Virus record (IMG/VR): IMGVR_UViG_3300046820_001502
Location: 1-56,790 of that record
Length of the DNA: 56,790 bases
From: a virus
Reading direction: 5' to 3' (one strand)
Both the position numbers and the translations under genes were made by a program. The first letter of the stretch is position 1; each line of letters opens with the position of its first letter. The notes below the pieces were generated by a model that was not told where the DNA came from, did no database searches, and saw nothing but the letters and a program-made list of their open reading frames with translations. This document shows positions 7,762 through 47,000 of this stretch, piece after piece.

Positions 7762-8250
7762 TTAGTATACCAAGATACAACGGTCCATTCTCATAGATGA
7801 TGTGATAGTTGCAATACCATCTTGTGAATAAGATAATTGTCCACCATCATATTTTGTTAAGAAGGTTCCTTCCAAAATCCATTTCTCAACAACAACACCT
7901 GTTGGGTCTAACATTTCTAAATCCACATTTTTCTTATATCCCGCAGCATATCCCATACGACCTGTAACTGACTCAGCACATAAACGTATCCACTCCATTA
8001 GAGCTTGTGAAGCTGAAGGTCCGATAGGGTCTCTGAAGGTAACACCAAGTTCACCCCAAGTAAATCTACCTGCAACATATGTTGAAGTGTTCAAAAACTG
8101 AATCTCTGTTGCCGCGATTGTTAAACTCGGTCTTGATGTTGTTTCTACATACCACTCGTTGATCCCCAATGAAGAAGGGAATCTTAGAATCCAACGGTTT
8201 TGCCTTTTCGGCTCGTAAGGAATCGGCATTTTCATTAATAAATCAGCCAT
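7762..8250 (-). CDS. Tail tube protein (T4 gp19-like)
   Basis: 162 residues, almost the same length as T4 gp19 (163). It is a compact beta-rich protein. It contains NRWILRFPSSLGINEWYVETTSRPS, written here in parts: NRWILRFPSS (residues 17-26) and EWYVETTSRP (31-40). It then has the TWGELGVTFRDPIGPSASQ stretch (about 64-82), which resembles the conserved 'w..i.vtf.D' strand of gp19 tube subunits, and ends in a strand-rich segment with ILEGTFLTKYDGGQLSYS (about 123-140). The tube is the inner hollow cylinder around which the sheath contracts. The gene is one removed from the sheath gene, with a HAD phosphatase inserted between, and has its own TATTTAT element 34 bases upstream and its own terminator, as expected for a highly expressed late gene. 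Confidence 0.85.
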   Translation of the reverse strand: MADLLMKMPIPYEPKRQNRWILRFPSSLGINEWYVETTSRPSLTIAATEIQFLNTSTYVAGRFTWGELGVTFRDPIGPSASQALMEWIRLCAESVTGRMGYAAGYKKNVDLEMLDPTGVVVEKWILEGTFLTKYDGGQLSYSQDGIATITSSMRMDRCILVY

Positions 8251-8284
8251 ATCTTAAATTTTCTTTTTTTGTTTTATTTTTATT

Positions 8285-8291
8285 ATAAATA
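8285..8291 (-). promoter_or_regulatory. TATTTAT late-promoter-like element
   Basis: TATTTAT on the coding strand, 34 bases before the tail tube ATG (8250), in a 109-base gap with no other recognisable content. Confidence 0.5.
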
Positions 8292-8359
8292 GTGTGAAAT
8301 AAAATTTTTTCTATTTACTTCAAATTTTTTTCAAGTTATATCTTAACTAGTCCTAGTTT

Positions 8360-9190
8360 TTATTCAAATTTAGTTTTCTTTCCTCCTCCAGTATAATAAA
8401 TATCTAATCCAGATTCATCATCAAAATGTTTCTTCATAGTTTGAACATTCTTTAAATCGTCATCTGAAAAACCTATATAAGGTATAAAATAATTACTAAT
8501 TTTGTTTTTCATAAATGCCTTTTCTTGTAGTTTTCTTGAAAGGTCTTGTACATAATTAACAAACTCTCTCATTGCAGTCACTTTAAGTTCCTCAGGGTTG
8601 GCAGCCGAACCTTCACCAAAACTTACAGGGTGGAATCTACACATATCTAAATACACCTTAATTAATTCGTCATCAGAAAGTTCGTCCTCGTCTGCAAGGT
8701 CTCTATATTTTTTAAGATTTTTAACAATCTCTGATTTATTTAAACCGTGTTTATTATTTTGAATTAAATTATAAACAGCCTGTTTTAATACCGAAGGGGT
8801 GTGTCCTCTTGCTGTTACAATGGCAAAAATGGATCCATTATTCACCGCCTCAACAAAGTCGTCCCACGCAGGACCAATAGGGGCTTTCATAGAGTCTGTT
8901 AAGAATTTTTTATCACCCGTAACTCTGAAGTCTCTAAAAGCATCGTCGTCAAAACCTGCGACAGTGTGACCTTCATATTCGAAAGGTTCTTTTCCAATTT
9001 CAGTTCGGTATTCAGCAAAGTCTTCTGTAGACATCCCAACACTATTACCTTTATCATCCTTCAAATATATTTTAGTTGGCATATACATAAGGTTATCATC
9101 CCAATCAAAAGCATAATACTTCATCGTAGGTTTCATTTGGTCCTGAATAATTTCTGATATTATTTCTTTAACAATTTTTTTGTGATACAT
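8360..9190 (-). CDS. HAD-superfamily phosphatase-like protein
   Basis: 276 residues with the HAD fold motifs in order. Motif I is FDWDDN (residues 28-33; nucleophile D29 and acid/base D31), motif II is VTARG (T126), and an acidic motif IV-like cluster is GFSDDD (240-245). HAD enzymes cleave phosphate esters through a phospho-aspartate; in phages the fold is used for polynucleotide 3'-phosphatase and nucleotidase roles. No kinase P-loop is present, so this is not a polynucleotide kinase fusion. The substrate is unknown. The gene sits between sheath and tube, an odd place for an enzyme. The annotated ATG is only 4 bases after a TATTTAT element; ATG codons at residues 19 and 23, just before motif I, are alternative starts that would leave a normal leader. 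Confidence 0.7.
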   Translation of the reverse strand: MYHKKIVKEIISEIIQDQMKPTMKYYAFDWDDNLMYMPTKIYLKDDKGNSVGMSTEDFAEYRTEIGKEPFEYEGHTVAGFDDDAFRDFRVTGDKKFLTDSMKAPIGPAWDDFVEAVNNGSIFAIVTARGHTPSVLKQAVYNLIQNNKHGLNKSEIVKNLKKYRDLADEDELSDDELIKVYLDMCRFHPVSFGEGSAANPEELKVTAMREFVNYVQDLSRKLQEKAFMKNKISNYFIPYIGFSDDDLKNVQTMKKHFDDESGLDIYYTGGGKKTKFE

Positions 9191-9194
9191 ACTA

Positions 9195-9201
9195 ATAAAT
9201 A
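9195..9201 (-). promoter_or_regulatory. TATTTAT element abutting the start codon
   Basis: TATTTAT on the coding strand only 4 bases before the ATG at 9190. If it is a -10 element, transcription would begin at or inside that ATG, so translation may start at the internal ATG at residue 19 or 23. Confidence 0.4.
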
Positions 9202-9214
9202 TTGTGTTTAATAA

Positions 9215-9246
9215 AAAAGGGGAACGTTTGTCCCCCTTTTCTTTTT
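9215..9246 (-). terminator. Rho-independent terminator after the tail sheath gene
   Basis: AAAAGGGG (9215-9222) pairs with CCCCTTTT (9233-9240) around a short loop. On the minus strand the GC stem is followed by six T, and it lies just past the sheath stop codon at 9259. It is nearly symmetrical and could work on both strands. Confidence 0.7.
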
Positions 9247-9258
9247 TTATAACTTAAA

Positions 9259-12200
9259 TTAGATATTTTCAAACGATGCTCCTGTTGGAGTGATGTAGAA
9301 TGTAATATCAATAAATTCAAGAGATCTTGTTGGTTTGATATAGATTTTTCCTGTTAATTGGTTTCTATCTATATCCTCAGGATCTGAAGAAACTGTTACA
9401 CGGAAGTCATATAAACCACGGTCTCTTCTAATCGCATCTAAGATTGGGTTAACCGCATTTAAGAAGTCTTGTCTTACTTGTGCGTCGTTTTGTTCAAACA
9501 ACAATCTGATAGATACTGCTGAAATCAACTTACGAGTTTGTAATAACAATCTTCTTACGTTGATTCTATCAAGAGCCGATTCTCTTACTTGTAGAGTTTT
9601 GTTACCCCAAATTACGGTACCTACGTCAGAGAAAGTTGCAATTGGGTTAATTCTACCAATATAAAGGATGTCTCTATCTTCTTGAGTCAACTTCTTACGA
9701 GCTTTAATACAGTTAACAATACCACGAGTGTAACCCGCCGCCGCGAACCATGGGAATGCGATGTTGTCTGTAAGAGCTAAGTTTCTTGTTACCTCAGCCG
9801 TTGGTGGAATATAAAGTTGAGTGTTGTTTACACTATCTCTTGTTAATACCCAAGGGTAGTAAGTACAAGTGTAGTTAGAGTCAATTCCTGTGTTATCTAA
9901 GTTGTCAACTGCTTCTGTTGGGTAAATAAATATGTCAGTACCGTTAGGTGATGGAACATATAAATCTATATCAGGAGTAGTACAGATATAAAGTGAGTCA
10001 GCTCTGTTGAATTCAATCATACTAACCGCATCCTCAACCAAGTTACTGTTATTTACATAATCAATACCAGGAGTTACGAATACGTTGATGTTTGTTGCCT
10101 CAGGGTTTGCGAATGTCTGTTGTCCTAACAAGTATGCGTAGTAGTCAGTATTCGCCCAATCTTGAGTACCATCTCCAAGAGAAATCTCTTTAAATGCTCC
10201 CCATCCTGTAGCGTTAGGGTATCTTGTAGAAGGACAAGCTCCTCTTAAGAATCCACTTCTACCAATTTGGAATTCATCTGTATTTGTTCTCCACTCTCTG
10301 TAGATATCCCATCCGTCGAATCCACCTTGTACTAAGAATGTGAATTTACGTGCAAATAATCTATAGTATGCGTTTGTCGGAGATTCAGGTTCAGTAATGA
10401 ATGGTGAATTACCACAGATAAATCTTGGGTCACCACTTGTTGAGAACTCAGGTCCGATTGTTAATCCACTTGCGTTTACGTCCATGTGGAAACCTGCTGA
10501 TCTGAAGTTGAATGGTAATCCATCAATATCACAAGAATTCACAGGATTTCTCTTACCAACATATTCGAAGAAAGCTGGATCCCAACCATAAGAGTTAGAA
10601 ATACCTAAGTAAGTTCTTCTAACATTATCTCCTGAACTAACTAATGCATCGTTGTTTCCTGAAGATAAACCAAATGGTGGATCGTAAATTACTTCACCAG
10701 GGAAGTCATATTTTCCTTTAATGATTGGGAATGGTGAGTTAGCACCTGCGTAATTTCTAAAGTTAAATCCGTTAAATCCACAAGGTAATGTGTCGATCGG
10801 AGCGTCTTCAGACATTTCAATCATAACGTATTTAGAGTTAAGAGCGTACTCCCCATCTAATGTTCCAATTTTATTTGCAACGAAGTTGTTTTGACCTGGA
10901 TCCATAGTACAGTTTGTGAATTTCTCAATTACAACAGGGTTTGCATCCGTATCAAAATAATCTCTAATCAATACATCAAATGTTAAATTAGAATAAGTTT
11001 GATTGATGATTGAAATTTTAATTAATGTGTTCGCCGCGTCTCCATCAGAAATTGTGTAGAATCTAAATAAGTCATATACTTTATTACCTCTTAATTCTGA
11101 CACAACAAACGGAGATACTGGTGTTTGCCATCTGTCTAAGTACCAACCAATTGAGTTTGGATCTCCACTCTGAGCTGAGTCAAGTGCAATTAAGTTAGGG
11201 TTTAGACCTCTAATGTATCCTTTTCTCCAAGCGAAGTTCAACCATGATTGGAAGTTTTCTTCTGCAAATACAGGAACTTCGATTCTTGGTTTTTGGAAGT
11301 TGGTTACACCAAACACTTTAGTCCAATATTCAGGATCATTTTGAGTAAATGAAGTTTCAAATGTAAAGTTAGTACCAAATTTGTCTTTAACATTTACAGC
11401 AAAAGTTGCATATGGGTTTTTAAGAACCGCCGAGTATTGACCTGTCATATTTAAAGTAACATCAGACGTTCCTGTTACAGAATATGTAGGGTTTGTTGCC
11501 GTAGTATAAGTTGAGACACCTCTTGATCTTAATGTACCAACAACAACATTATCGTAATTAGTATATGATGTACCTGTGTAGTAGTATTGTTTAACAACTA
11601 ATATACCACTATAACAATTAATAGGTGCTGCAGTTGTTGTAGTTGTGGTTGTTCCTGGTACAGGAGTAACACAAGGACTAGTTGTTGTAGTCGTTGTTGA
11701 AGGTGAGATTGTTGTTGTAGTTGTGATTGGGGTAAGTGTCAAACCTGAAACATAAGTCAAGAAAGAATATCCAAGATAATTTGTATTTCCAGTATTTGAG
11801 AACAACGCATAGTACCAAGAATCGTTTAATGGAGATAATAAATTTGTATCGTCCAAAGAAACTGAAGGAACACCAAACACGTTTGTTTGTGCTGTCCATC
11901 CTGCGTTAGTTAAAGCTTCATAATCGCTTGTTTTAACCGAACCAAAATATGAAATGTACTCATCTTCCGCAACATATGGTTGTGAATCTGTAATTACACT
12001 GAAAATTAGATCTTTAATTTGAGCGTCTAATGTTGATGTACTACCATTAAATTGTTCGTATTGATCGTACAATATACTTTCTATATCTGCCGGGAATAAT
12101 GTTTCATATGAAATTGTACTTGTGTCGTTAGTACATGCTGTGAACGCAACTAATGTTGTTTGTTCGTATGGTACTGCACATATAGTTTCACAAGTGTAAA

Positions 12201-12594
12201 CGTCAGTAACAGAACTTAAACAATAAACACCGATTGTTGATGGGTTTACGTTAGCAACCGTTGCCACAGACCAAGATGGACCTGCATCATATCCTGATAA
12301 ACCAAGAATTCTAGTTACAAATAATTGATTTGATTGTTGTAAGTACGCCTTTGCAATATAAGATGCCTCGTATTTAGGGATTTGAGTATTTACAAATTTT
12401 TCAGGTGAGTTTCCACCAAAAACTGTTTGGAATTCATCAAAATTTGTTATGAAGATTGGTTCAAAGGCTGGACCAATTAGAGTTTCTCCAACTATACCCA
12501 AAGTAGTTACACCGACACTTTGAGCCACAAAACTCAAGTCAACTTCTGATGTGTATACTCCAGGTGATACAAAAACTTTACTGTTTGTTGCCAT
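9259..12594 (-). CDS. Tail sheath protein (T4 gp18-like) with Thr-rich insert
   Basis: 1111 residues, against 659 in T4 gp18. The N-terminus VFVSPGVYTSEVDLS is the classic sheath start. The C-terminal domain is clear: SLYICTTPDIDLY, then FPWFAAAGYTRG, then NVRRLLLQTRKLISA and FRVTVSSDPEDID near the end, the region that interlocks subunits during contraction. The extra length lies in the middle. It includes a low-complexity segment (residues about 285-320, DNA about 11628-11735) with several runs of four to seven Thr broken by SPS, SPCVTPVPG and AAP, flanked by beta-rich sequence. The insert probably projects on the outer surface of the tail, and similar Thr/Pro runs occur in five other proteins here. 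A TATTTAT element lies 34 bases before the ATG. Sheath identity is firm; surface exposure of the insert is inferred. Confidence 0.92.
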   Translation of the reverse strand: MATNSKVFVSPGVYTSEVDLSFVAQSVGVTTLGIVGETLIGPAFEPIFITNFDEFQTVFGGNSPEKFVNTQIPKYEASYIAKAYLQQSNQLFVTRILGLSGYDAGPSWSVATVANVNPSTIGVYCLSSVTDVYTCETICAVPYEQTTLVAFTACTNDTSTISYETLFPADIESILYDQYEQFNGSTSTLDAQIKDLIFSVITDSQPYVAEDEYISYFGSVKTSDYEALTNAGWTAQTNVFGVPSVSLDDTNLLSPLNDSWYYALFSNTGNTNYLGYSFLTYVSGLTLTPITTTTTISPSTTTTTTSPCVTPVPGTTTTTTTAAPINCYSGILVVKQYYYTGTSYTNYDNVVVGTLRSRGVSTYTTATNPTYSVTGTSDVTLNMTGQYSAVLKNPYATFAVNVKDKFGTNFTFETSFTQNDPEYWTKVFGVTNFQKPRIEVPVFAEENFQSWLNFAWRKGYIRGLNPNLIALDSAQSGDPNSIGWYLDRWQTPVSPFVVSELRGNKVYDLFRFYTISDGDAANTLIKISIINQTYSNLTFDVLIRDYFDTDANPVVIEKFTNCTMDPGQNNFVANKIGTLDGEYALNSKYVMIEMSEDAPIDTLPCGFNGFNFRNYAGANSPFPIIKGKYDFPGEVIYDPPFGLSSGNNDALVSSGDNVRRTYLGISNSYGWDPAFFEYVGKRNPVNSCDIDGLPFNFRSAGFHMDVNASGLTIGPEFSTSGDPRFICGNSPFITEPESPTNAYYRLFARKFTFLVQGGFDGWDIYREWRTNTDEFQIGRSGFLRGACPSTRYPNATGWGAFKEISLGDGTQDWANTDYYAYLLGQQTFANPEATNINVFVTPGIDYVNNSNLVEDAVSMIEFNRADSLYICTTPDIDLYVPSPNGTDIFIYPTEAVDNLDNTGIDSNYTCTYYPWVLTRDSVNNTQLYIPPTAEVTRNLALTDNIAFPWFAAAGYTRGIVNCIKARKKLTQEDRDILYIGRINPIATFSDVGTVIWGNKTLQVRESALDRINVRRLLLQTRKLISAVSIRLLFEQNDAQVRQDFLNAVNPILDAIRRDRGLYDFRVTVSSDPEDIDRNQLTGKIYIKPTRSLEFIDITFYITPTGASFENI
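11628..11735 (-). repeat. Thr-rich low-complexity insert in tail sheath
   Basis: Reiterated ACN codons (gttgttgtagttg on the plus strand) encode runs of four to seven Thr with Ser/Pro interruptions inside the sheath gene. Confidence 0.8.
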
Positions 12595-14482: not shown

Positions 14483-16258
14483 ATGAATTTGGAAAATCCA
14501 AAACCACTTGTAGAACACAGAGCTCTTGAATTATTAGAGTCGTATAGTGGTGCAAATAATTATATTTTATATCTGAAACATAAACAAGAAGTTTCCAAAA
14601 AATTCTATCCTACAAGGTCCCAAGCTGATTACATCGTCACATTTATAGATTCAACACCAAAGGTTGCAAGAAAGTGGGTTGATCTTGATACGTACTTTGC
14701 CAAAAAGTTTGCCGAAGAAAGGTACTTGTTAGAAACACCTGAAAAAATTTATATTGAGAAATTATTGGTTGAGAAAGAAAAATCTTATCATGTTTGGGGT
14801 AAGTTTTTTGAAAAAGATAAACTATCTGAGTTTTGGGTTCCCAAATCAGCATTAATTAAAACACATAATGTCCAATCAGTTACTATTGATTATTCGAAGT
14901 ATTCACATCGTCCTCCGCTTGATCATCAAAAAAGTGCGATCGAAAAATTAGCAGGATCAAAAAGATTTATCTTAGCTGATGATATGGGTCTTGGTAAAAC
15001 CACATCCACAATTATCGCGGCTTTAGAGACAGGTGCAAAGAAAATATTAATTGTTTGTCCAGCATCTTTAAAAATAAATTGGCAACGTGAAATTGAAAAT
15101 TATTCAGATAGACCTGTTTTTATTGCGGAAAGTAAAAAATTTTCAACTGAATCTGATTTTGTAATTGTTAATTATGATATTCTAAAAAACTTCCACGACT
15201 CAGACCCAAAGAAAAAAGAAGAGTCGTTATTATTACAAAGTAATTTTGATTTAGTTATTTTAGATGAGGCCCATATGATCTCAAACGTTCAGGCTCAAAG
15301 AACAAAAATTATAAACAGTTTTGTTAAAAGGATCGATAAAGTTTGGTTATTAACGGGAACTCCTATGACCTCAAGACCTATGAATTATTATAACTTGTTA
15401 AATATAATTGAAAGTCCTGTTGCTCAAAACTGGAAAGCATACGCGATCCGTTATTGTCAAGGGTTTCAGTTTACAGCAGGAAAAAGAAAAGTTTGGAATG
15501 TGACGGGGGCATCTAACTTGGAGGAATTAAGAGATCGAACATCAAAACAAATTCTTCGTAGATTAAAAGAAGATGTTTTAGATCTACCTGATAAAATTAT
15601 CACTCCTGTTTATTTGAGATTGAAATCAAAAGAATATGAAGATTTAATGGGGGAATATTTTGATTGGTACGATAAAAACCCTGACGAGTCTTCATCACTT
15701 ACGGTTCAGTTTTCAAAACTAATGAAGGTTAGAAAAGTAATCGCGAATGAAAAAACAAAACAAACAATTGAATTCACAGAAAATATTATAGAACAAGGCA
15801 AGAAAGTTATAATCTTTACCAACTTTACAGACACACTCCAAACAATCTACCAACATTTTGGAAAACAGGCGGTGTATCTTGATGGTAGTTGTTCTAATGC
15901 TATTCGTCAACAGGCTGTCGACCAATTTCAAAACGAAGATAAAATAAAAGTATTTGTTGGGAACTTAAAAGCCGCAGGTGTTGGTTTAACGTTAACAGCT
16001 GCCGAAGCGGTCATAATGAATGATTTATCTTTTGTTCCCGCAGAACACGCACAAGCCGAAGACAGGGCGTATCGTTACGGTCAAAAATCAAATGTATTAG
16101 TTTATTATCCTTTGTTTGAGAATACTATTGAAGGTGCAATTTATGACATTCTAAATAAGAAAAAACAGATAATTAAAACTGTTATGGGTGACGGTGTTCA
16201 AGAAACCACGGGAGATGTTGCTGAAGAAATCCTTAAAATGATAAATAAAAATAGATAG
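14483..16258 (+). CDS. SNF2/DEAD-like superfamily 2 helicase
   Basis: 591 residues with a complete set of SNF2-type motifs: motif I DDMGLGKT (about residues 164-171, Walker A), motif II DEAH (about 261-264, Walker B), motif III LLTGTP (about 288-293), motif V GVGLTLTAAE (about 499) and motif VI QAEDRAYRYGQ (about 525-535). The Q-x-x-D-R-x-[YH]-R-x-G-Q form of motif VI is typical of SNF2 proteins. The first 140 residues are a separate domain that I do not recognise. Such ATPases translocate on double-stranded DNA; in T4-like phages the related UvsW remodels recombination and replication intermediates. It starts a plus-strand group whose next gene follows after 15 bases. Its 43-base upstream gap has AT-rich sequence but no TATTTAT in this orientation. 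Confidence 0.85.
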   Translation: MNLENPKPLVEHRALELLESYSGANNYILYLKHKQEVSKKFYPTRSQADYIVTFIDSTPKVARKWVDLDTYFAKKFAEERYLLETPEKIYIEKLLVEKEKSYHVWGKFFEKDKLSEFWVPKSALIKTHNVQSVTIDYSKYSHRPPLDHQKSAIEKLAGSKRFILADDMGLGKTTSTIIAALETGAKKILIVCPASLKINWQREIENYSDRPVFIAESKKFSTESDFVIVNYDILKNFHDSDPKKKEESLLLQSNFDLVILDEAHMISNVQAQRTKIINSFVKRIDKVWLLTGTPMTSRPMNYYNLLNIIESPVAQNWKAYAIRYCQGFQFTAGKRKVWNVTGASNLEELRDRTSKQILRRLKEDVLDLPDKIITPVYLRLKSKEYEDLMGEYFDWYDKNPDESSSLTVQFSKLMKVRKVIANEKTKQTIEFTENIIEQGKKVIIFTNFTDTLQTIYQHFGKQAVYLDGSCSNAIRQQAVDQFQNEDKIKVFVGNLKAAGVGLTLTAAEAVIMNDLSFVPAEHAQAEDRAYRYGQKSNVLVYYPLFENTIEGAIYDILNKKKQIIKTVMGDGVQETTGDVAEEILKMINKNR

Positions 16259-16261
16259 ATA

Positions 16262-16268
16262 TATTTAT
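16262..16268 (+). promoter_or_regulatory. TATTTAT late-promoter-like element
   Basis: TATTTAT on the coding strand, 5 bases before the ATG of the superoxide-dismutase-containing gene, suggesting late or very short-leader expression. Confidence 0.4.
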
Positions 16269-16273
16269 CTATA

Positions 16274-18412
16274 ATGAAAGTTTCTATTAAATACGAAAAT
16301 TCCGATCTAAAACAGTATCAAGATTTTGTTAAAAAATTCATCAATTTATTACAAGATGAATATCCGTTAAAGGATGATATCAGAATCGAGTTTTTAAATG
16401 GTCGAAAAGGTGAGATGTCTACAGGTAGCAGAAGAGGAGATCATCTTATTAAAGTCTTAGCGAAGAAAAGACTTAATCGTGATATTATGAGAACTTTGGC
16501 TCACGAGTGGGTACATGAATATCAATTTGCAATTCTTAACAGAGAACATGGACCAAACATCGGTGGTAAAAACGAAGACGAAGCAAATGCGGTTGCAGGA
16601 CAGATTGTTAAAAAATTCGAAAAGAAATATCCCAAACTTGAAAAGTTAATGTACGAAGGTACGGGTATTGAAGGAAAGCTCAATTTACTTACAGAACAAA
16701 TTCTAATTGAAGAAAAAACAAGTGTTCAAAATGACTTGTTACTTGAAATGAAAAAGGTTGGTATTGAAAAATTACCATATTCATATTCTTCTTTGGGTAG
16801 GTTTATTGATAGTAGAACTATGAATATTCACTATAACAAACATTACAAGGGTTATGTTGACAAACTCAACAAAGCATTAAAAGATGTTGATGGTGATATG
16901 GGATTAGAAGAAATTGTTAAATCAATCAGTAAGTTTGACAACAAAGTTAGAAATAATGCTGGCGGAGCATTTAACCACGCACTATTTTGGAAAATGTTAT
17001 CTCCAAAAAAACAAAAACCCAAAGGAAATATTTTTGATAAAATTAAAGAAGATTTTGGTAATATAAAAAAAATGAAAGATAAATTTAACGAAGCCGCCAA
17101 AGATCGTTTTGGATCGGGTTGGGCTTGGTTATATTTAACAAAAAACGGTGACTTAGAAATTATGTCCACCCCAAACCAAGACAACCCTTTAATGAATGTT
17201 GTTAAAAAAGGTGGTTATCCTTTATTAGGTCTTGATGTTTGGGAACACGCTTACTATTTAAAATACCAAAATAAAAGAGATGAATATATTGAGAAGTTTT
17301 GGGATGTTGTTAATTGGGAATTTGTTGAGGAATTATATAATCAACATACTAAAAAGAAAAACCTAAAAGAGAATTACGATAACTCAAACATAATATCTGA
17401 GGCAAAGAAAGATCCTGCATTCCCATACACAGCAAAACAAACTAGAGACTTAATATATCCACAATATGTTGGTTGTTATGAAAAACAATTTAAATACGGT
17501 TGTTTAGGTAAAATTGAAAAGAAAAGATGTCAAACTAGTTTGGGTGTTTTAGGTGGTGATTTTGCCGAAAACAAATACGGTGGTAATAGTAATTGGTCTA
17601 TTATAAATCGTTTTGATACTAATAAATCGGTTCATAGAGAAATAATTAAAATTTGGAAAGAGGAGACTCAAGGTCTTGAAGATATTGCAACTTGGATTAA
17701 ACAACATGCTTATGACCTATTTTCAAATGAAGGTATGTATACAGAAAGGTTGGTTGATATCAATTCAGAAATCATTAGTGACGGTAATCTTAATGAAGAT
17801 TATGCCAAACAAATTATTATTGAGCAATATAATTTAGACCCTGCAAACGAAGGTATAACATATGAGTTATATGAAAGTTGTTCTGGTGATCCAAATGATA
17901 TTAAAAAAGGTCAAGACATCATATTAAAATTGTTAGATAAAAATGAGGTTGTTTATTTCCAAGTCAAACCTTTTAAGTCAGATATTGTAATCTTATATGG
18001 TGGTGGGGATAGAGGTATATATTTTATTGTTCCGTCAAGTTACAATATGAACAAGTATAAGGCCGAAAATGTTGATGTTTTTGTTTTTGTTGATAGAGAA
18101 CAACAAAAATTTATGATGTTCAGAAATGATAAAAATAGAATATTAACCATAGCAAACCCAGACAGATACCCTCCGTTTTTGAATTACTTTTATGAACTTC
18201 CTTTAAAGAGTAATTTTAAAGTTCCAGAATCAGAGGAACCTATAAGAACACCAATTAAAAAATCTTTAGAAAGAGATAAAGATAAAGAAATCCAATATTA
18301 CAAAGACAGAATTAAAGTTCTAATGAAAAAAGTTGAGGAGTTAGGCGGATCTGTTGATATTGAAAATTTATTAGAATACTACCAAAAGGAACTCGAAAAA
18401 ATTTCTTTTTAA
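16274..18412 (+). CDS. Composite protein: zincin-like + Fe/Mn superoxide dismutase + nuclease-like C-terminus
   Basis: 712 residues. Residues about 1-130 hold a zincin signature, LAHEWVHEYQF (HEWVH at 77-81), followed by an EDEANAVA helix that could give a third ligand. Residues about 165-370 are a full Fe/Mn superoxide dismutase domain: it starts LPYSYSSLGRFIDSRTM and keeps all four metal ligands (H186 in NIHYNKHY, H235 in FNHALFW, D321 and H325 in LDVWEHAYY), plus the GSGWAWLY and VVNWEFVEELY family blocks. The last 320 residues are of unknown type. VYFQVKPFKSDIVILYGG (about 557-574) could be the Q-x-K strand of a PD-(D/E)XK-like fold, and residues 660-712 are charged and probably coiled coil. 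Superoxide dismutase converts superoxide to peroxide and oxygen. Such a fusion is unusual; it may be a virion-delivered protein protecting or processing host targets. Confidence 0.8.
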   Translation: MKVSIKYENSDLKQYQDFVKKFINLLQDEYPLKDDIRIEFLNGRKGEMSTGSRRGDHLIKVLAKKRLNRDIMRTLAHEWVHEYQFAILNREHGPNIGGKNEDEANAVAGQIVKKFEKKYPKLEKLMYEGTGIEGKLNLLTEQILIEEKTSVQNDLLLEMKKVGIEKLPYSYSSLGRFIDSRTMNIHYNKHYKGYVDKLNKALKDVDGDMGLEEIVKSISKFDNKVRNNAGGAFNHALFWKMLSPKKQKPKGNIFDKIKEDFGNIKKMKDKFNEAAKDRFGSGWAWLYLTKNGDLEIMSTPNQDNPLMNVVKKGGYPLLGLDVWEHAYYLKYQNKRDEYIEKFWDVVNWEFVEELYNQHTKKKNLKENYDNSNIISEAKKDPAFPYTAKQTRDLIYPQYVGCYEKQFKYGCLGKIEKKRCQTSLGVLGGDFAENKYGGNSNWSIINRFDTNKSVHREIIKIWKEETQGLEDIATWIKQHAYDLFSNEGMYTERLVDINSEIISDGNLNEDYAKQIIIEQYNLDPANEGITYELYESCSGDPNDIKKGQDIILKLLDKNEVVYFQVKPFKSDIVILYGGGDRGIYFIVPSSYNMNKYKAENVDVFVFVDREQQKFMMFRNDKNRILTIANPDRYPPFLNYFYELPLKSNFKVPESEEPIRTPIKKSLERDKDKEIQYYKDRIKVLMKKVEELGGSVDIENLLEYYQKELEKISF

Positions 18413-18420
18413 TTTCTGGA

Positions 18421-18440: not shown

Positions 18441-19568
18441 ATGGCAATTATTAATGAACCGGAAAGAAGTCAATTCTACCAAAAAGTTAGACACTTATTA
18501 GGGGCTCCTTTAAGATCTGTAGAATTGGAAGATGAGATGATGGATACCTTATTAGAGTATGCAATTGACGATTATTCTCAGTATGTCCAAGATTGGTTAA
18601 TTGAGTCCCAATGGACTTCATTAAATAATTTAAATTTAGATACCCAATCTTTATCAAGAGCATTTATCACTAAAAGTTTAGACTTTGAAACTAGATATAC
18701 TTACGCATACTCTAAAATTGTTGGTCTACAGGCTGGTGGTGATTGGGAAATTAAAAAAGATTATATACAGTTAGTTCCTAATCAACAAATTTATGAGATA
18801 CCTGCAGGTCGTGAAATAAACGAAGTATTATGGTTTACTCCATCCACACTTAACAATTTAATGTTTGGTTTAGGTGGTTTTGCAGGTGTTGGTATTGGTA
18901 CAGGACTTGGTGGTGGTGGAGGTCTTGCACAGATCGGTAACATGGCGGGAAGTTATTATTTAACACCGGCATTTGATACTTTATTAAGAATGCAAGAGGT
19001 TAACATACAAAGAAGAATATATGCGGGTGATTTAACATATTACATAACTGCACTTCCCGACGGTAAAAAAGCATTACACCTTTTGAACACACCTGGAGGT
19101 AAATTTGACTTTGGTAATGCAGAATTATCAAAAGGTCAAGTTTGGTATTGGTATTATGATACTTCACAAGGTGATAGAGATAAATGTTTAGCAGATAATC
19201 CTGATATTGTATTATTACCATCAGATGTTCCATTTAATAAAATAAGTTGGGACAGACTTAATAATCCTGCACAAATATGGGTTAGAAGATGGTTTACCGC
19301 TTATTGTAAAGAAACACTTGCAAGAGTACGTGGTAAGTTTAGTGGTAGTTTAAAAACTCCTGATGGTGAATTAACTATGGATTATGCGGCACTTGCAACT
19401 GAAGGTAAAGATGAGAAGACAAAATTAATAGAAGAATTAATTGGTGCGGAAGGAAGATTAACAAGACTTCGTCCTGAAAAAATAATGGAGAGAGAAGCAT
19501 TACTTGCTGAAAACTTAAACAAACAACTTAAGTTTAGGGCAATGCCACGTCAAATTTATGTGATTTAA
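18441..19568 (+). CDS. Probable neck / head completion protein (T4 gp13-like)
   Basis: 375 residues. The N-terminal 75 residues are helical, then come beta-rich segments (DYIQLVPNQQIYEIPAGREI, about 114-133), a Gly-rich loop at about 140-165 and a helical C-terminus. The stretch RRWFTAYCKETLARVRGKFS (about 288-307), followed by a short loop and a run beginning 'LTMDYAALATEGKDEK', matches my memory of gp13-type neck proteins in T4-like phages (x-x-A-K-E-M-L-G-x-x-R-x-K-[FY], then G-D-x-L-x-x-E-A). In T4, gp13 and gp14 close the head after packaging and make the tail-joining site. Here it lies on the opposite strand from the gp14-like gene, 28 bases after the composite superoxide dismutase gene. 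Confidence 0.55.
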   Translation: MAIINEPERSQFYQKVRHLLGAPLRSVELEDEMMDTLLEYAIDDYSQYVQDWLIESQWTSLNNLNLDTQSLSRAFITKSLDFETRYTYAYSKIVGLQAGGDWEIKKDYIQLVPNQQIYEIPAGREINEVLWFTPSTLNNLMFGLGGFAGVGIGTGLGGGGGLAQIGNMAGSYYLTPAFDTLLRMQEVNIQRRIYAGDLTYYITALPDGKKALHLLNTPGGKFDFGNAELSKGQVWYWYYDTSQGDRDKCLADNPDIVLLPSDVPFNKISWDRLNNPAQIWVRRWFTAYCKETLARVRGKFSGSLKTPDGELTMDYAALATEGKDEKTKLIEELIGAEGRLTRLRPEKIMEREALLAENLNKQLKFRAMPRQIYVI

Positions 19569-30633: not shown

Positions 30634-31521
30634 TTAAATTCCTAATTCCGTCTCAAAAAAATGAACGAAGTGTGTTTTATTTTTAATTGATTCTCTATCG
30701 AAAACCGGAGTTGTGAGCCAAAAGTCTTCATGATACCAAGTATCAAAACTGAATGTTTTAAACATATCAGGATTTTCGAACTCTAAGTTTGTAATCATAC
30801 CTTCGTGATTTAATATATGATTTTCATTTAAACATAAATTACTTATTATATCAAATTCTTGTATGAACCATTTTATTTTTGAAATGTGTCCTCCCAAAAT
30901 ACCACCAACAGACATATGTTTATAATCATTATTATTTTTATAAACTTTTCTAATCTCATTTGGGTTATGTGAAAACATGGTATTTGCCAAGTTGATTAAT
31001 TTATCGCCAACCCAATTATTTATCTTTGGGAATAATTCAGGACAAAATATTTTTGTAAATGAATAGTTTTCCCAATCTCGAGATAAACCAGTAATCTTAT
31101 CGGAGTAAGGATTATATTTTAAGGTAAACAATCCTCTGTGAGATAAACCACAATCAATCCAATAAATGTAGTCATAGGATTCGTCGTATTCTTTTGAAAT
31201 AAGGTATATTTTATTCCAATCAACTTCATGGTAGAAATTAAATTGTTCGTTAGATTTTTTAATCTCTAACATTCTTTCCGTTTTTGGGTAGTCTTTAAGA
31301 TTTGAAATTTTAATCGTTACGTTATTTAAATTAAATTCCTCACAATATTTTTGTAACAAATCAAATTGAGTTTCATTACAATAACATATAATTTCATTAT
31401 TCATGTTATTTAATGTCCTTAAAGAATGTAAGTATCTTTCTTGTCTTGCAAATGACTCGTGACCAAAAAAAGGAAACCCAATAATATCGGTATAAAAGGC
31501 GGTTACTAGCTTTGTCTTCAT
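30634..31521 (-). CDS. HtrL/YibB-family putative glycosyltransferase
   Basis: 295 residues, starting KLVTAFYTDIIGFPFFGHES, then DYIYWIDCGLSHRG (about 137-150; the W-x-D-x-G site of the family) and HMSVGGILGG (about 201-210), corresponding to the GGFFGG block in the composite neighbour. This matches the WlaTC/HtrL family found in lipopolysaccharide and capsule clusters, presumed to be a nucleotide-sugar transferase with a GT-A fold. The donor cannot be told from sequence. Its ATG overlaps the carbamoyltransferase stop by 4 bases, indicating translational coupling, and 9 bases separate it from the three-domain enzyme, whose middle segment is a paralogue. Confidence 0.7.
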   Translation of the reverse strand: MKTKLVTAFYTDIIGFPFFGHESFARQERYLHSLRTLNNMNNEIICYCNETQFDLLQKYCEEFNLNNVTIKISNLKDYPKTERMLEIKKSNEQFNFYHEVDWNKIYLISKEYDESYDYIYWIDCGLSHRGLFTLKYNPYSDKITGLSRDWENYSFTKIFCPELFPKINNWVGDKLINLANTMFSHNPNEIRKVYKNNNDYKHMSVGGILGGHISKIKWFIQEFDIISNLCLNENHILNHEGMITNLEFENPDMFKTFSFDTWYHEDFWLTTPVFDRESIKNKTHFVHFFETELGI

Positions 31522-33095
31522 ATTCTTTTTCTAAAATAGTAATCACCTAATAAAAGACAATCCATTTCTGTTTTATCGTAAACCGAAATCGCATCACTAT
31601 ATCGAGAAAGTATTGGTTTTCCATTAACGTTGAACGATGTATTTAATAATACCCCTATACCTGATTGTTTCTCAAACTCAGTTAATAAATTGTATAACCA
31701 AGGGTTTTGTTCTTCAGTTACGGTTTGTACTCTTGCTGTACCATCTACGTGTGTAATTGAAACTAATTTTTCTCTCCACTCTTCTTTTACAGTAGGACAA
31801 AATCCCATCCACTTACTTTCACCCTCAAAATTAAAATATTTAGATACGTCTTCTAATTTACATACAGGGGCAAAAGGTCTATACCACTCTCTGTTTTTTA
31901 CTTTAGCATTTAATATATCTTTCATGTTATCATAAGCAGGATTACAAATAATACTTCTATTCCCTAAAGCTCTCGGACCATGTTCTGCATTACCTCTGAC
32001 AACACCAACAATTCTTCCATCTACTAAATCCTTAACTAACATTTCTGTCTCTAAAGGTAAAGCGTGTCTTTCCTCAACATGAGACATTAATGTATGTTTA
32101 TCTAAAATTGGAATACCTGCGTATGTAATGTCGATAGCCTTTTCAGGTTTAATATGATTTAACATCATTCCTGTTGCAATTCCACAATCATTTGGATTGG
32201 GTGGTACAAAAACTGGTCTATCAAGTTCTTGGTGTAACTTTGTGTTTAACAATATGTTTAATGCACAACCACCAACAAGTATTAAAGGTATATTTGGGTA
32301 TTGATCTAAAAATGGTATAGTTAACTCCATAAACACATTCTCAAATGCAATCTGAGAAGTTTTAGCAACATCCCAACCTATTTGACCCGTTAATCTATTT
32401 TCAAAATCAAAAGAAAGACCTGTTTGTTCTGCCAACTCATTTAAATAACCTAAGTAATTATTTCCGTCAGGTTTTTTTCTATAGTATTCTTCGAAGTGTG
32501 GCAACCAATCTTCATTAACATTACCATAAGAACAAAGTCCCATAATTTTTCCTGAGTAAACTAAATTACCAATATTAAGTGCCGGTTCTTTTGTAATATC
32601 ACCCAAGTAATCACCAAATGACATATATGGAAACCCTAAATCAGTATTAAATTTTTCAATAAGGTTTATGTTATTTCTGTCTTCCGCATGATACACATTA
32701 AAGAATCCATCATTACCTCCTCCATCAAATGAAATAATTAAAGCTTCGTTATAATCTGTTTGGTATAAACCACAAGCAGCATGGCTTAAATGGTGTAGTG
32801 AATTAATATATTCTTTTGCCGGTATTAACTCTTGATAATGAACCTTTGTTGTGTGTTCGATTGTATCCGCATTTAAGTAATAACATTTATCATATTCTGA
32901 AATTCCATATTCATCTTTAATAAATTGTAAAATATGTTTTAACAAAAAGGGTCTTGAGTATGAAATTAAATATTGTGCGTAACCTGCGTTTTTTTGGGTA
33001 AGAAATCTTTCGACTTCTATTACCACAATAATTTTTCCTTGATCCTCAACAACAACCGCAGAATTGTGAGATCCGTAAAATGAAATGTTTGCCAT
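31518..33095 (-). CDS. Carbamoyltransferase (NodU/CmcH family)
   Basis: 525 residues. The N-terminal Kae1-like domain shows HHLSHAACGLY (101-111) and ISFDGGGNDG (121-130), and in the middle LVGGCALNILLN, the metal/nucleotide pocket of this family. The C-terminal YrdC-like-to-transfer part has EHGPRALGNRSI, RPFAPV and FNVNGKPI. Members such as NodU, CmcH and TobZ use carbamoyl phosphate and ATP to place a carbamoyl group on a sugar or antibiotic hydroxyl. In this block it likely decorates a glycan made by the neighbouring transferases. It is 10 bases downstream of the GT60-like gene and overlaps the next by 4. No late-type TATTTAT precedes it. Confidence 0.9.
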   Translation of the reverse strand: MANISFYGSHNSAVVVEDQGKIIVVIEVERFLTQKNAGYAQYLISYSRPFLLKHILQFIKDEYGISEYDKCYYLNADTIEHTTKVHYQELIPAKEYINSLHHLSHAACGLYQTDYNEALIISFDGGGNDGFFNVYHAEDRNNINLIEKFNTDLGFPYMSFGDYLGDITKEPALNIGNLVYSGKIMGLCSYGNVNEDWLPHFEEYYRKKPDGNNYLGYLNELAEQTGLSFDFENRLTGQIGWDVAKTSQIAFENVFMELTIPFLDQYPNIPLILVGGCALNILLNTKLHQELDRPVFVPPNPNDCGIATGMMLNHIKPEKAIDITYAGIPILDKHTLMSHVEERHALPLETEMLVKDLVDGRIVGVVRGNAEHGPRALGNRSIICNPAYDNMKDILNAKVKNREWYRPFAPVCKLEDVSKYFNFEGESKWMGFCPTVKEEWREKLVSITHVDGTARVQTVTEEQNPWLYNLLTEFEKQSGIGVLLNTSFNVNGKPILSRYSDAISVYDKTEMDCLLLGDYYFRKRI

Positions 33096-39691: not shown

Positions 39692-39725
39692 AAAAACCCC
39701 CATCTTTTCAGGTAGGGGTTTTTTT
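39692..39725. terminator. Bidirectional terminator between convergent genes
   Basis: AAAAACCCC (39692-39700) pairs with GGGGTTTTT (39715-39723) around a 14-base loop, in the 56-base gap between the composite transferase and the giant fibre. It has T runs on both strands and overlaps the fibre's stop region. Confidence 0.75.
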
Positions 39726-41000
39726 ATGCTGGACAAGCGTGTGCCGCAATACAAGTCGTACAGTCACTATATTGTGCGGTTATTGTTCCTACTGATACGG
39801 TTGCGGGCCCAGTACTAGATGAAACAAAGTCAAAACATACACCAGTAAGAGGATCATAAAATCCACTGAATCCCATACCACCTTGAGCTAATACAACTTG
39901 GTTAGTGTTTAAACAACAGTTATAAACTTCGTAATAATTACAAGGGTTGGATTCTAAACACTTTTCACAAGTATCATAAGGAGTATCAGTGTAAAAATTA
40001 CTTGTTGGTGTATCTGTCGTTATTGACACACAAACATAACAGTTATCACTTATTACTTCAAGATAACTTAATCCAATTGTAAATACTCCATATGCGACTT
40101 GTGTTACGCCAGTTTCACAACAAGCCGAGAATAAATAATAGTCAGGACAGCCACCAACATCTAAACGACATTGTGTACAATCATCAAATTGTTTGGAGTT
40201 ATAAATTGGTACTGGCCAACTTACAGTACCCGTTAAGTCCCAAGAAGTAACTTCCCAACAAACACCATTTGTGTCTGTAAATATAGTCCCTGTTTGTGGG
40301 ACAAACGCTTGAGTTGCATATACCTCAACTTGTAAAGGGTTACAACAATTTCTTATTGTAACATAAACAACTTCAGGACAAGGATTTGCTGTTTTACAAG
40401 CTTCACATCCACCAAAATATTGGCTAGCTAAAGATATACTATAATTTGTTGGTAATTGATTTACTTGTGTATTAATTACCCAACAAAAACCATTTGTGTC
40501 TATCCAAATTTCTCCAATAGATACAGTTCCGGCTGGTATTGATATGATTTCTTGAGGTAAAACCTTACAACATGAATTAATAAACCAAAACTCAGGACAC
40601 TCATTTGTGGTAATACAGTCATCACAATTTGTGTATCCCGTTGTTCCAATTGTAATTGTTGGTGCTGTTACAGGTGCCCCGGTTCCAGATGTAACATTCC
40701 AACACAATCCATTATCATCAACAAAAGTATCACCAACTACTAAATCTAACGAACCTGTAACATATTCAAGTCCAGTAACACAACAACTATCAATTACCGC
40801 ATTATCAGGACAAGGGTTACTTGATATACAAGAAGAACAACTTGCGTAATTGGTCACTAATGTTCTAATACTATTTGGTGCTGCAAGTGTAGTACTTTCT
40901 ATTTCCCAACAGTTATCTTGAGCATCACTCCAAAATGTTCCTATCGTTAAACTACTACCAACAATAATTTCAGTTACAGTTGGTTCACAACAGTTTCTTA
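39724..41000 (-). repeat. Six Cys-rich modules at the fibre tip
   Basis: Six units of about 65-75 residues, each [NSA]-C-C, then about 25 residues, G-x-C-[WYF], then about 25 residues, C-x2-C-x5-C-[PN]. Units are diverged (for example NCCEPTV..., SCCVTGL..., ACCETGV...). Disulphides or metal sites are likely; I do not recognise the module. Confidence 0.8.
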
Positions 41001-44000
41001 ACACATAAAATTCACCATCAGGAATTGTACAATCTTTTTCATAATTTAAGGTATATGTAAATCGTGGTTCTTGTGTAGGAGTATCAGCATCTTGAACAAT
41101 ATTAAAACCAACAACATAGAATATGTCACACGCATTATAATATTGTGTAAATGTATGTGAAACATCAAAACATAAATAGTTTGATGTCATATTGAAATAT
41201 GCTGGAGATATTACAGTTGTTAAAGGAATTAAATCTCCTAAATCATTACATTGATATAAATAAAGTGCCACAACAAAAGATGGTTGGTACGAAGATAGGT
41301 TAATCTTCCACCATACATTACCACAAAGTCTTATACTATCTCCAGCTCTAACATTAACTGGTGATGGAACACCTAAAAAGGCTGTATCACCTCTAAGGGG
41401 GTTCGCACTAAATCTTATAGGAACTCCTATATCCCAAGGACAACCATTCCAACCACATTCGGAACTACCCATCCAAAGAAAATTTGTGTTTGTGTCTGGC
41501 TGTGGGGTTAGTTTAAATTTACCCGAATTTGACGCTATTAATGTATTATCTATGTTACAACTTCCACCTCCACCAGTACAAGTTAATGTTACATTTACAG
41601 ATCCACTTGTTCCTGAGGTTGCGGTTATACAAGTTCCGATAAAATTAATACTTGTTGCACTTGATTGAACTAAATTTCCTTCGTCGAATATAGAAATTGC
41701 ACCTCCTCCGCCGCCACTTGTACCTGAAGATCCGTTTGTACCATTTGTTCCCGAAGTTCCAGGTGATCCTGTTGCCCCATTTGTTCCGTTTGTTCCTGAC
41801 GTACCATTTGTTCCGTTAGTTCCTGAAGTTCCCGGTGATCCTGTCGCCCCATTTGTTCCGTTTGTTCCTGACGTACCATTTGTTCCGTTAGTACCTGAAG
41901 TTCCCGGTGATCCTGTCGCCCCATTAGTTCCGTTTGTTCCCGAAGTCCCATTTGTTCCATTCGTACCTGAAGTTCCCGGTGATCCTGTCGCCCCATTAGT
42001 TCCGTTTGTTCCCGAAGTCCCATTTGTTCCATTCGTACCTGAAGTTCCCGGTGATCCTGTTGCCCCATTTGTACCATTAGTTCCTGAAGTACCATTTGTA
42101 CCATTAGTTCCTGAAGTTCCCGGTGATCCTGTAGCCCCATTTGTACCATTAGTTCCTGAAGTACCATTTGTACCATTAGTTCCTGAAGTACCAGGTGATC
42201 CTGTCGCCCCATTTGTTCCGTTTGTTCCTGACGTTCCATTTGTACCATTAGTTCCGTTTGTTCCATTAGTACCCGAAGTCCCATTAGTTCCATTCGTTCC
42301 TGAAGTCCCATTAGTCCCGTTAGTTCCATTTGTTCCTGACGTACCCCTTGTTCCTGACGTTCCATTAGTTCCGCTAGTACCATTTGTTCCATTTGTTCCT
42401 GATGTACCGTTCGTTCCTGAAGTTCCATTTGTTCCGTTAGTTCCATTGGTTCCCGAAGTTCCGTTTGTACCGTTGGTACCAGAAGTCCCATTTGTTCCAT
42501 TAGTTCCATTTGTTCCGCTAGTACCATTCGTACCGCTTGTCCCATTCGTACCATTCGTTCCTGATGTTCCATTTGTTCCGTTGGTCCCGTTAGTACCTGA
42601 CGTTCCATTTGTACCACTAGTACCATTAGTTCCGTTAGTTCCGCTAGTACCATTAGTACCGCTCGAACCATTTGTTCCATTTGTTCCTGAAGTACCATTT
42701 GTTCCATTAGTACCCGATGTTCCGTTGGTACCGCTAGTTCCGTTAGTTCCATTAGTCCCTGACGTACCGTTGGTTCCTGAAGTTCCATTAGTTCCATTTG
42801 TACCACTTGTTCCATTTGTACCATTAGTTCCTGAAGTTCCGTTTGTTCCATTTGTACCATTTGTCCCGTTGGTCCCTGAAGTCCCGTTAGTACCTGAAGT
42901 ACCATTCGTTCCTGACGTACCGTTTGTTCCATTAGTACCTGATGATCCGTTTGTACCGTTAGTACCTGAAGTTCCATTTGTCCCGCTAGTTCCGTTAGTA
43001 CCATTAGTTCCTGATGTACCATTAGTTCCGTTTGTCCCTGAAGTACCATTAGTGCCTGATGTTCCGTTTGTTCCATTTGTCCCGCTAGTTCCGTTTGTAC
43101 CATTGGTTCCGTTTGTTCCGCTAGTCCCGTTAGTACCGTTGGTACCACTTGAACCATTTGTTCCATTAGTTCCCGACGTACCGTTTGTACCTGAGGTTCC
43201 GTTAGTACCATTCGTACCGCTAGTGCCATTTGTTCCATTCGTACCGCTAGTTCCATTTGTACCATTAGTTCCCGAAGTTCCATTGGTACCTGATGTTCCG
43301 TTAGTCCCATTAGTACCACTAGTTCCATTCGTACCGTTTGTTCCGCTAGTACCGTTGGTTCCACTTGAACCATTTGTTCCATTCGTCCCTGAAGTGCCGT
43401 TTGTCCCATTTGTTCCATTTGTTCCCGAAGATCCGTTTGTTCCGTTAGTACCTGATGTTCCATTGGTTCCGTTAGTTCCATTCGTCCCTGATGTACCATT
43501 TGTTCCTGATGATCCGTTTGTACCGTTAGTACCTGATGTTCCATTAGTTCCCGAAGTCCCATTTGTACCGTTGGTACCACTTGAGCCATTAGTTCCGTTC
43601 GTTCCGCTCGTACCGTTTGTTCCTGACGTTCCATTTGTACCATTCGTTCCATTTGTACCATTTGTTCCTGAAGTTCCATTGGTTCCCGAAGTTCCGTTGG
43701 TTCCATTCGTACCTGAAGTTCCATTAGTACCATTTGTTCCGTTAGTTCCTGAAGTTCCGTTAGTTCCGCTCGTACCATTTGTTCCATTAGTTCCATTAGT
43801 ACCGTTGGTTCCTGAAGTCCCATTTGTTCCTGAAGTTCCGTTGGTTCCACTAGTACCATTTGTACCGCTCGTACCATTAGTACCCGATGTTCCATTAGTT
43901 CCGTTTGTTCCATTAGTTCCGTTTGTTCCCGATGTACCATTAGTACCACTTGTACCATTCGTTCCATTAGTTCCTGAAGTACCATTAGTTCCCGATGTCC

Positions 44001-47000
44001 CATTTGTCCCATTCGTACCTGATGTTCCATTTGTGCCGTTAGTTCCGTTTGTACCGCTAGTACCATTTGTACCATTTGTTCCTGAAGTTCCATTGGTTCC
44101 GTTAGTTCCTGAAGTTCCATTTGTACCTGACGTTCCATTGGTACCATTTGTTCCTGAAGTACCATTCGTACCTGATGTTCCATTAGTCCCATTAGTACCT
44201 GAAGTTCCGTTGGTACCATTTGTTCCTGAAGTACCATTTGTTCCGTTTGTACCTGAAGTACCGTTGGTTCCGTTAGTACCACTTGTACCATTCGTACCTG
44301 ATGTTCCGTTAGTTCCATTTGTACCGCTAGTACCATTAGTACCATTTGTTCCTGATGTGCCGTTAGTCCCAGAAGTTCCATTGGTTCCACTTGTTCCGTT
44401 AGTACCATTCGTTCCTGACGATCCATTGGTTCCATTGGTACCTGATGTTCCATTAGTCCCACTTGTTCCATTTGTACCATTTGTTCCTGAAGTACCATTA
44501 GTTCCGCTAGTTCCGTTTGTACCATTTGTTCCGCTAGTTCCATTTGTTCCGTTCGTACCGCTAGTACCATTTGTACCTGAAGTTCCGTTCGTACCATTTG
44601 TTCCTGATGTTCCATTCGTACCTGAAGTTCCATTTGTCCCATTCGTACCACTAGTACCATTAGTTCCATTTGTACCGTTAGTTCCGTTTGTTCCTGATGT
44701 CCCATTTGTTCCGTTGGTTCCTGATGTTCCATTAGTACCTGAAGTTCCATTTGTGCCGTTAGTTCCGTTTGTACCGCTAGTTCCATTGGTTCCGTTAGTT
44801 CCTGAAGTTCCATTTGTACCTGACGTTCCATTGGTACCATTTGTTCCTGAAGTACCATTCGTACCTGATGTTCCATTAGTCCCATTAGTACCTGAAGTTC
44901 CGTTGGTACCATTTGTTCCTGAAGTACCATTTGTTCCGTTTGTACCTGAAGTCCCGTTTGTCCCACTTGTTCCGTTGGTTCCATTCGTTCCATTAGTCCC
45001 ACTTGTTCCGTTGGTTCCATTCGTTCCGCTAGTTCCATTAGTCCCATTTGTTCCGTTAGTCCCATTCGTTCCGCTAGTTCCATTCGTTCCTGACGTTCCA
45101 TTCGTACCGTTGGTACCACTTGAACCATTTGTTCCGTTAGTACCCGAAGTTCCGTTTGTACCATTCGTCCCTGAAGTACCATTTGTTCCGCTTGTACCGT
45201 TAGTCCCATTAGTTCCACTAGTACCATTTGTTCCGTTTGTTCCACTAGTTCCGTTAGTACCTGAAGTACCGTTGGTTCCATTTGTACCGCTAGTACCGTT
45301 TGTTCCATTTGTTCCTGAGGTTCCATTCGTACCGCTAGTACCATTAGTACCATTTGTTCCCGAAGTACCATTTGTACCATTCGTACCTGAGGTTCCGTTT
45401 GTTCCGCTAGTTCCATTTGTTCCATTAGTACCGCTAGTCCCGTTAGTTCCATTTGTTCCTGAAGTTCCATTAGTACCCGAAGTACCATTCGTACCATTAG
45501 TTCCTGACGTACCATTAGTACCGTTGGTTCCATTCGTACCATTCGTACCATTTGTACCACTAGTCCCATTTGTTCCTGATGTTCCATTCGTACCACTAGT
45601 TCCGTTAGTTCCATTTGTACCTGAAGTACCATTAGTGCCGTTTGTACCAGATGTTCCATTCGTTCCGCTAGTACCATTTGTTCCGTTTGTCCCTGACGTT
45701 CCATTAGTTCCGTTCGTTCCATTCGTTCCGTTGGTTCCCGAAGTTCCATTGGTTCCATTTGTACCACTTGTACCGTTAGTACCATTAGTTCCGTTTGTTC
45801 CATTTGTACCACTTGTACCGTTAGTACCATTAGTTCCTGATGTTCCGTTAGTCCCATTAGTACCCGATGTACCATTTGTTCCGCTAGTTCCGTTGGTTCC
45901 ATTAGTACCATTCGTACCATTAGTTCCGCTAGTACCATTTGTACCGTTAGTTCCTGATGTTCCGTTTGTCCCTGAAGTACCGTTAGTACCGTTGGTTCCC
46001 GAAGTTCCATTCGTTCCGTTTGTACCTGAAGTTCCATTTGTACCATTTGTCCCCGATGTACCATTAGTACCTGAAGATCCGTTCGTACCATTCGTTCCGC
46101 TAGTTCCATTAGTACCATTCGTTCCACTAGTACCATTTGTTCCAGACGTACCATTTGTTCCATTAGTACCGCTAGTTCCGTTCGTACCATTTGTTCCATT
46201 AGTACCGTTAGTACCTGATGTTCCGTTTGTTCCATTCGTACCTGATGTTCCATTGGTTCCATTTGTTCCTGACGTACCGTTCGTACCGCTAGTACCGTTT
46301 GTTCCATTTGTTCCTGACGTTCCATTAGTTCCATTAGTTCCGTTAGTACCGTTTGTTCCCGATGTCCCATTCGTACCGCTAGTACCATTAGTTCCGTTAG
46401 TACCGTTTGTACCTGAGGTTCCGTTGGTTCCATTAGTTCCGTTGGTACCATTTGTTCCGCTAGTTCCATTCGTTCCTGACGTACCGTTTGTTCCTGATGT
46501 GCCGTTAGTTCCGTTAGTTCCGTTAGTACCGTTTGTTCCCGATGTTCCGTTAGTACCGTTTGTTCCCGATGTTCCGTTCGTTCCTGAAGTTCCATTTGTA
46601 CCGTTGGTACCGTTAGTTCCGCTTGAACCATTTGTTCCATTTGTTCCTGACGTACCGTTTGTTCCATTAGTACCGCTAGTACCATTTGTTCCCGATGTTC
46701 CATTAGTACCGTTGGTTCCTGATGATCCGTTTGTACCATTTGTCCCACTAGTGCCATTTGTGCCTGAAGTTCCATTCGTTCCATTGGTACCGTTAGTTCC
46801 TGATGTTCCGTTTGTTCCATTCGTACCTGAGGTTCCGTTGGTACCATTTGTTCCGTTTGTACCATTTGTACCCGATGTCCCATTGGTTCCGTTCGTTCCG
46901 CTAGTTCCATTGGTTCCGTTTGTTCCCGATGTTCCGTTGGTACCATTTGTTCCATTAGTTCCGTTCGTACCGCTAGTTCCGTTGGTACCATTTGTTCCAT

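Follow-up and report, generated by a model that had tools for sequence, protein, structure and literature searches.

Why would a virus of bacteria encode a complete superoxide dismutase (SOD) in the middle of a 712-residue protein, beside a gene for its neck? The reading frame in question occupies positions 16274-18412 (+) of a 56,790-nt stretch of viral DNA, a partial genome (IMG/VR record IMGVR_UViG_3300046820_001502) that we refer to as the window. It runs through 712 codons with no internal stop and comprises a zincin-like domain, the SOD and a nuclease-like C-terminal module (C-module). Two aspects are new here, as judged from the sequences of the protein and its relatives: the joints match the motif of the T4 prohead protease gp21, and the domains appear to be separable cassettes. 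The pattern suggests that the SOD may be packed in the particle and delivered into bacteria.

Distribution of the fusion

The earlier note proposed that this architecture be sought in other phages. A single IMG/VR scan recovered it on many separate contigs: 276 stretches encoded relatives, and the 80 that were kept yielded 62 distinct proteins (counting that of the window, 63 distinct frames), all 62 with the same zincin-SOD order. The note had also named an assembly error and the loss of metal ligands in relatives as grounds for doubt. The recurrence of the same fusion on separate contigs rules out an assembly chimera, and no relative has lost a ligand. One relative, L046, is split by a stop codon in the N-terminal part of the SOD, just past the H190 region (frames 7965-8570 and 8574-10142), perhaps a genuine interruption, perhaps an error of sequencing.

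A survey anchored on the neck gene covered 80 loci, with the fusion at 69, an SOD without the zincin at six and neither at five. An SOD is thus not present at the locus in every relative (the five loci without it keep the neighbours), nor are zincin and SOD always fused, as a zincin-less SOD group and stand-alone zincins exist. Ten long phage records, selected for carrying the gene, gave one SOD match each. The phage collection contained no isolate homologue covering 80% of the protein, and PADLOC returned no match to a known defence family. The best predicted-structure match is a "superoxide dismutase" of an uncultured Caudovirales phage (A0A6J5L953, 501 aa; 34% identity over 512 columns). 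The databases thus already contain a relative, automatically named, for which we know of no description of the joints, the cassette exchange or the late element. A freshwater record filed as "Bacteriophage sp." (MW462191.1, L210) has a stand-alone SOD among bacterial-looking genes; the stretch shown, with an aminotransferase, an efflux gene and transcriptional regulators, looks like bacterial DNA.

The carriers of the gene form a large and widespread group among the uncultured viruses of aquatic bacteria. They are best read as large T4-like phages, given that relatives encode gp23 and a gp21-type protease, and their hosts are probably aquatic Bacteroidota. The protease (PF03420, family S77) was found in three of ten related records, namely the three that exceed 270 kb, and gp23 is encoded by these three and by a fourth record. 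No gp21-type protease was found in the window, which is a genome fragment. When the gp23 of two relatives was aligned to that of T4, the junction E65-A66 (LTE|A), the established T4 gp23 cleavage site, was invariant.

The superoxide dismutase domain

The SOD domain spans residues 161-358 (16754-17347, +). Its completeness, claimed in the earlier note, is borne out by Pfam matches to Sod_Fe_N (residues 165-243, E 2.4e-20) and Sod_Fe_C (residues 249-353, E 2.7e-40) and by the closest solved structure, a Sphingobacterium MnSOD (residues 166-357, E 1.5e-64). Both family domains of the Fe/Mn SODs and the full-length fold are therefore present. When the predicted structure is aligned to SOD chains, the VIA Z reaches 18; the search with the full-length model returned SOD-fold chains only and is uninformative on the other domains. 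Mn-type models outscore Fe-type models (195 versus 166 bits). The four ligands that the note had listed as intact, H186, H235, D321 and H325, are invariant in all distinct relatives covering them, in the zincin-bearing and zincin-less groups alike. Other active-site residues are likewise conserved, and the dN/dS of 0.03-0.09 in the SOD part points to strong purifying selection, in keeping with the suggestion that the domain may be active. We conclude that it is probably active and of the Mn type.

The phage SODs form one clade (support 100/100), set on a long branch apart from the cellular SODs compared, and they sit beside phage genes; host contamination is ruled out on these grounds. The closest cellular SODs are nearly all from Bacteroidota, with identity up to 56%. 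The fold, the four ligands and the surrounding blocks are shared with bacterial MnSODs (e.g., PDB 6gsc, Sphingobacterium), whereas the phage SOD lies within a multi-domain phage protein and in a clade of its own.

The flanking domains

The zincin-like domain comprises residues 1-128 (16274-16657, +). The HEWVH segment (an HExxH motif, residues 77-81) noticed earlier is conserved, and both it and NEDEAN (residues 100-105) are invariant in this domain. Pfam gave weak zincin matches, and the fold matches in BFVD were to IrrE-like and SprT-like predicted phage proteins. The same zincin also occurs in other contexts as a stand-alone protein of 129 residues.

The exchangeable C-module of the window covers residues 381-712 (17414-18409, +) and is PD-(D/E)XK-like. 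The Q-x-K strand of the earlier note is conserved (residues 563-565) and belongs to an invariant pair, GQD (546-548) and Q563-x-K565-P566, that forms a Q variant of the D...(D/E/Q)-x-K active-site pattern. The model of this module has a pLDDT of 85, and its best fold matches are the restriction-endonuclease-like I-Ssp6803I, SPARDA and Hjc, with scores (Foldseek E 3e-3, VIA Z up to 7.5) that are moderate and within the range of unspecific matches. The dN/dS of the window-type C-module is about 0.2. By eye, the module of the zincin-less group has a similar GID...QIKPF pattern. A scan with the window's C-module alone returned one further fused protein only, and the other C-module types matched no Pfam family below E 0.01.

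Candidate protease sites in the linkers

Linker 1 (residues 129-160; 16658-16753, +) contains L/I-X-E motifs that end at E141, E147 and E158, and linker 2 (residues 359-380; 17348-17413, +) contains motifs that end at E366 and E376. The AlphaFold pLDDT falls below 50 at residues 129-145 and 361-379. The linkers are more variable than the domains, and within them E141, E158, E366 and E376 are invariant or nearly so, each with L or I two residues earlier. In protease notation, P3 is almost always L/I and P1 almost always E, while P2 is free at most sites. T4 gp21 cuts C-terminal to L/I-X-E (PMC9026906). The interdomain joints match this motif and are candidate cleavage sites, with a P1' residue (M at E158, mostly Q at E141) less typical than A/S/G.

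The motif is short and common, and its frequency was compared with shuffled sequences. In linker 1 we counted 61 instances of [LI]xE versus 24.3 (sd 3.9) in shuffles over 19 sequence clusters, and in linker 2 45 versus 15.6 (sd 3.3) over 20 clusters; the sequences are related, so that these scores overstate the significance. The evidence from cassette loss and exchange, given below, is independent of them. The motif is depleted in the zincin-like domain (14 versus 33 expected) and at chance in the SOD domain (24 versus 25). Most other triplets tested had no comparable linker excess; in linker 1 an LLxE pattern also lifts the count of [LI]xxE (z 5.4). As a calibration, the T4 scaffold protein gp22 is rich in [LI]xE (z 4.9). 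Ranking all proteins of one relative by [LI]xE content did not single out the SOD protein (19th of 190), the signal being located in the linkers.

Loss and exchange of domains

Thirteen distinct proteins have no C-module and end at most about ten residues past the SOD, just before the linker-2 site. The linker-2 [LI]xE is present in all 20 clusters that have a C-module and absent where the protein ends there. The C-modules themselves fall into at least three groups with no detectable similarity to one another. An exchange can be followed in the DNA of the window and relative L023. Over 4370 nt the two share 98% identity, which ends at position 17370, within the E366 codon; this is the left border of the module swap. 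Past this point L023 has an unrelated module, and identity returns at 18419, just past the stop codon.

A further scan gave 61 distinct proteins of the zincin-less sister group, all with the ligands kept. In each of the 61, the SOD is immediately preceded by a leader, about 30 residues long, that has [LI]xE at its end; in 3 of 18 clusters this site is LxE or IxE with A as the next residue, the arrangement of T4 gp23. A short leader of this kind is found only in this group; the window protein starts with the zincin-like domain and has no short N-terminal targeting peptide of the T4 style. At the five loci without SOD, the same C-module family stands alone. In three of four such sequences inspected, an N-terminal stretch is retained in which LSE|S or LTE stands at the junction that follows the SOD in other relatives; in L276 it is not. 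Taken together, the cassettes are separable, and the candidate L/I-X-E sites persist through domain loss and exchange.

A late-type element and tagged reading frames

As the earlier note recorded, a TATTTAT element (16262-16268, +) ends exactly 5 bases before the ATG. It recurs in relatives, 50 of 53 having it at most 40 nt upstream of the start codon, and also precedes 76 of 80 sister genes of the zincin-less group. In a 272-kb relative (G001), TATTTAT precedes 96 of 280 reading frames in the coding orientation versus 38 for its reverse complement, and the frames so preceded include sheath, tube, scaffold and protease genes. We infer that it acts as a late promoter. The element is more frequent before reading frames whose N-terminus bears an [LI]xE tag than before others (38/70 versus 56/182, p 8e-4; control region p 0.58).

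Many reading frames of the 272-kb relative (L195-L209) open with recurring short tags, for example MKRIIRLTESDLARIVRRVINEE, MKIIITESQ and MKELIRHILKEET; those at 235709-236047, 246899-247333 and 251192-252778 are examples, and the tagged frames bear [LI]xE, often with TATTTAT. These tags look like a family of capsid-targeting peptides. In the window, a protein encoded at 8360-9190 (-), between the sheath and tube genes, opens with a resembling tag, KIVKEIISEIIQDQ, and has no Pfam, PHROG or NCBIfam match.

The genes around the SOD frame are consistent with the neck-gene neighbourhood described in the earlier note. The downstream gene (18441-19568, +), a constant neighbour of the cassette, matches the head-tail adaptor (neck) family phrog_211, and the upstream gene (14483-16258, +) encodes an SNF2-type helicase and is kept in the relatives inspected. 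Tail sheath, tube and baseplate-hub genes also lie near the frame in the window.

A proposed processed head cargo and its alternatives

Candidate gp21-type L/I-X-E sites in the linkers, together with exchangeable domains, make the protein look like head cargo that is made as a polyprotein and then processed, not like a single fusion enzyme of fixed composition. We lean, without strong conviction, towards a late cargo polyprotein that is cut in the prohead, with the SOD packaged and possibly injected. The polyprotein would be made together with the structural genes, late in infection, and would enter the prohead core, where the phage's own S77-type prohead protease would cut after L/I-X-E in the flexible linkers. 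Cutting would free the zincin-like domain, an active Mn-type SOD and, where present, the nuclease-like module. The released parts would stay in the capsid with the DNA, some of them perhaps entering the host at infection, and the SOD would clear superoxide in the vicinity of DNA that is packaged or entering the host. Late expression, packaging, cleavage, catalysis and injection, as well as host and purpose, are what we infer from sequence. The purpose may be to blunt an oxidative defence, as the earlier note proposed; as for the target of protection, packaged DNA, incoming DNA, the particle or the late infected cell may each fit as well.

An ordinary late intracellular SOD, that is, an auxiliary stress gene shielding the infected cell and the new phage, would involve neither packaging nor cutting, and the extra domains would act within the cell. 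Freshwater phage SOD and anti-oxidant genes have been read in this way, as protecting the infected host, including in grazers (PMC6802176), and jumbo phages, among them the PA5oct group, have annotated SOD genes that stand alone. We consider this account unlikely, as it leaves unexplained both why the L/I-X-E motif stays at all joints when domains are lost or exchanged and why L/I-X-E tags are linked with the late-type element. A role for the zincin itself has to be considered as well: in a polyvalent protein it could process its own chain, before packaging or in the new host, and release the SOD and the nuclease-like module as effectors. A zincin-like domain beside diverse effectors near late genes is the polyvalent pattern, for which self-processing has been proposed (PMC5512222), and HEWVH and NEDEAN are invariant here. 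Yet the zincin-less group retains the same L/I-X-E sites, which are thus independent of the zincin, and the zincin is also found alone; self-processing is in our estimate improbable. That the SOD fold serves the structure or the assembly of the head-neck region, with catalysis incidental or lost, we regard as very improbable, considering that neither group varies at any of the four ligands and that some phages have no SOD at the locus yet keep its neighbours. The neck gene next door and the long phage-specific stem of the SOD tree are what would speak for such a role.

If the SOD is indeed processed head cargo, phages would bring along an antioxidant enzyme already made, in the particle itself, and not just the genes for one, and oxidative stress at entry or in the water would become a directly testable selective force on them. 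Among the numerous uncharacterised proteins that uncultured T4-like phages encode, head cargo could then be predicted by a sequence rule that combines L/I-X-E at exchangeable joints with a late-type element. Only tentatively, and with more doubt than belief, do we extend the idea to a general cargo-cassette system in a Bacteroidota large-phage clade, in which many late proteins per genome, tagged with L/I-X-E at the N-terminus or internally, would be loaded into the capsid and released by the protease, the SOD being a common payload carried into the host.

Relation to known systems

The T4 internal head proteins IPI-III and Alt are targeted to the capsid, processed by gp21 and injected (PMC9026906). 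They have in common with the SOD polyprotein the logic of late head cargo, the L/I-X-E motif and a cargo that varies among related phages, and the relatives here encode a gp21-type protease as well as a gp23 in which the T4 junction is kept. They differ in that the cargo here is an SOD with internal joints between several domains, in that the window form begins with a zincin-like domain instead of a targeting peptide of about 10 residues, and in that packaging here is proposed from sequence. Polyvalent proteins of phages and plasmids combine several unrelated enzymatic domains in one chain, a zincin-like domain among them, with variable architecture and adjoining late genes (PMC5512222), and the same features are found here. 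That paper makes no mention of SOD, whereas the sites here fit a prohead protease and persist without the zincin. The giant phages phiKZ and SPN3US have head proteins that are processed and ejected. According to the sections cited, propeptides in these heads are cut after short X-X-E motifs, and many proteins are packaged with the DNA (PMC5694885); the motif given there is A/S-X-E, the cargo includes the virion RNA polymerase, and those sections mention no SOD. Chlorovirus PBCV-1 has a late-expressed Cu/Zn SOD packaged in its particle (PMC7019647), a viral parallel to the packaging proposed here, although that enzyme is unrelated, has a single domain and belongs to a virus of eukaryotic algae. 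Searches of the literature turned up nothing usable on a phage virion SOD or on the proteomics of a related Flavobacterium phage.

Other genes of the window

The tail sheath (9259-12594, -) has 1111 residues, with threonine-rich low-complexity stretches in its N-terminal half. A carbamoyltransferase gene (31518-33095, -) lies amid structural genes, and the adjoining reading frames are glycosyltransferase-like by eye. Two very long proteins (39724-49302 and 49421-53536, both -) consist mainly of collagen-like GTNGTSG/GTDGTSG repeats and are probably tail fibres; their repeat DNA also yields long spurious open stretches in other frames and strands.
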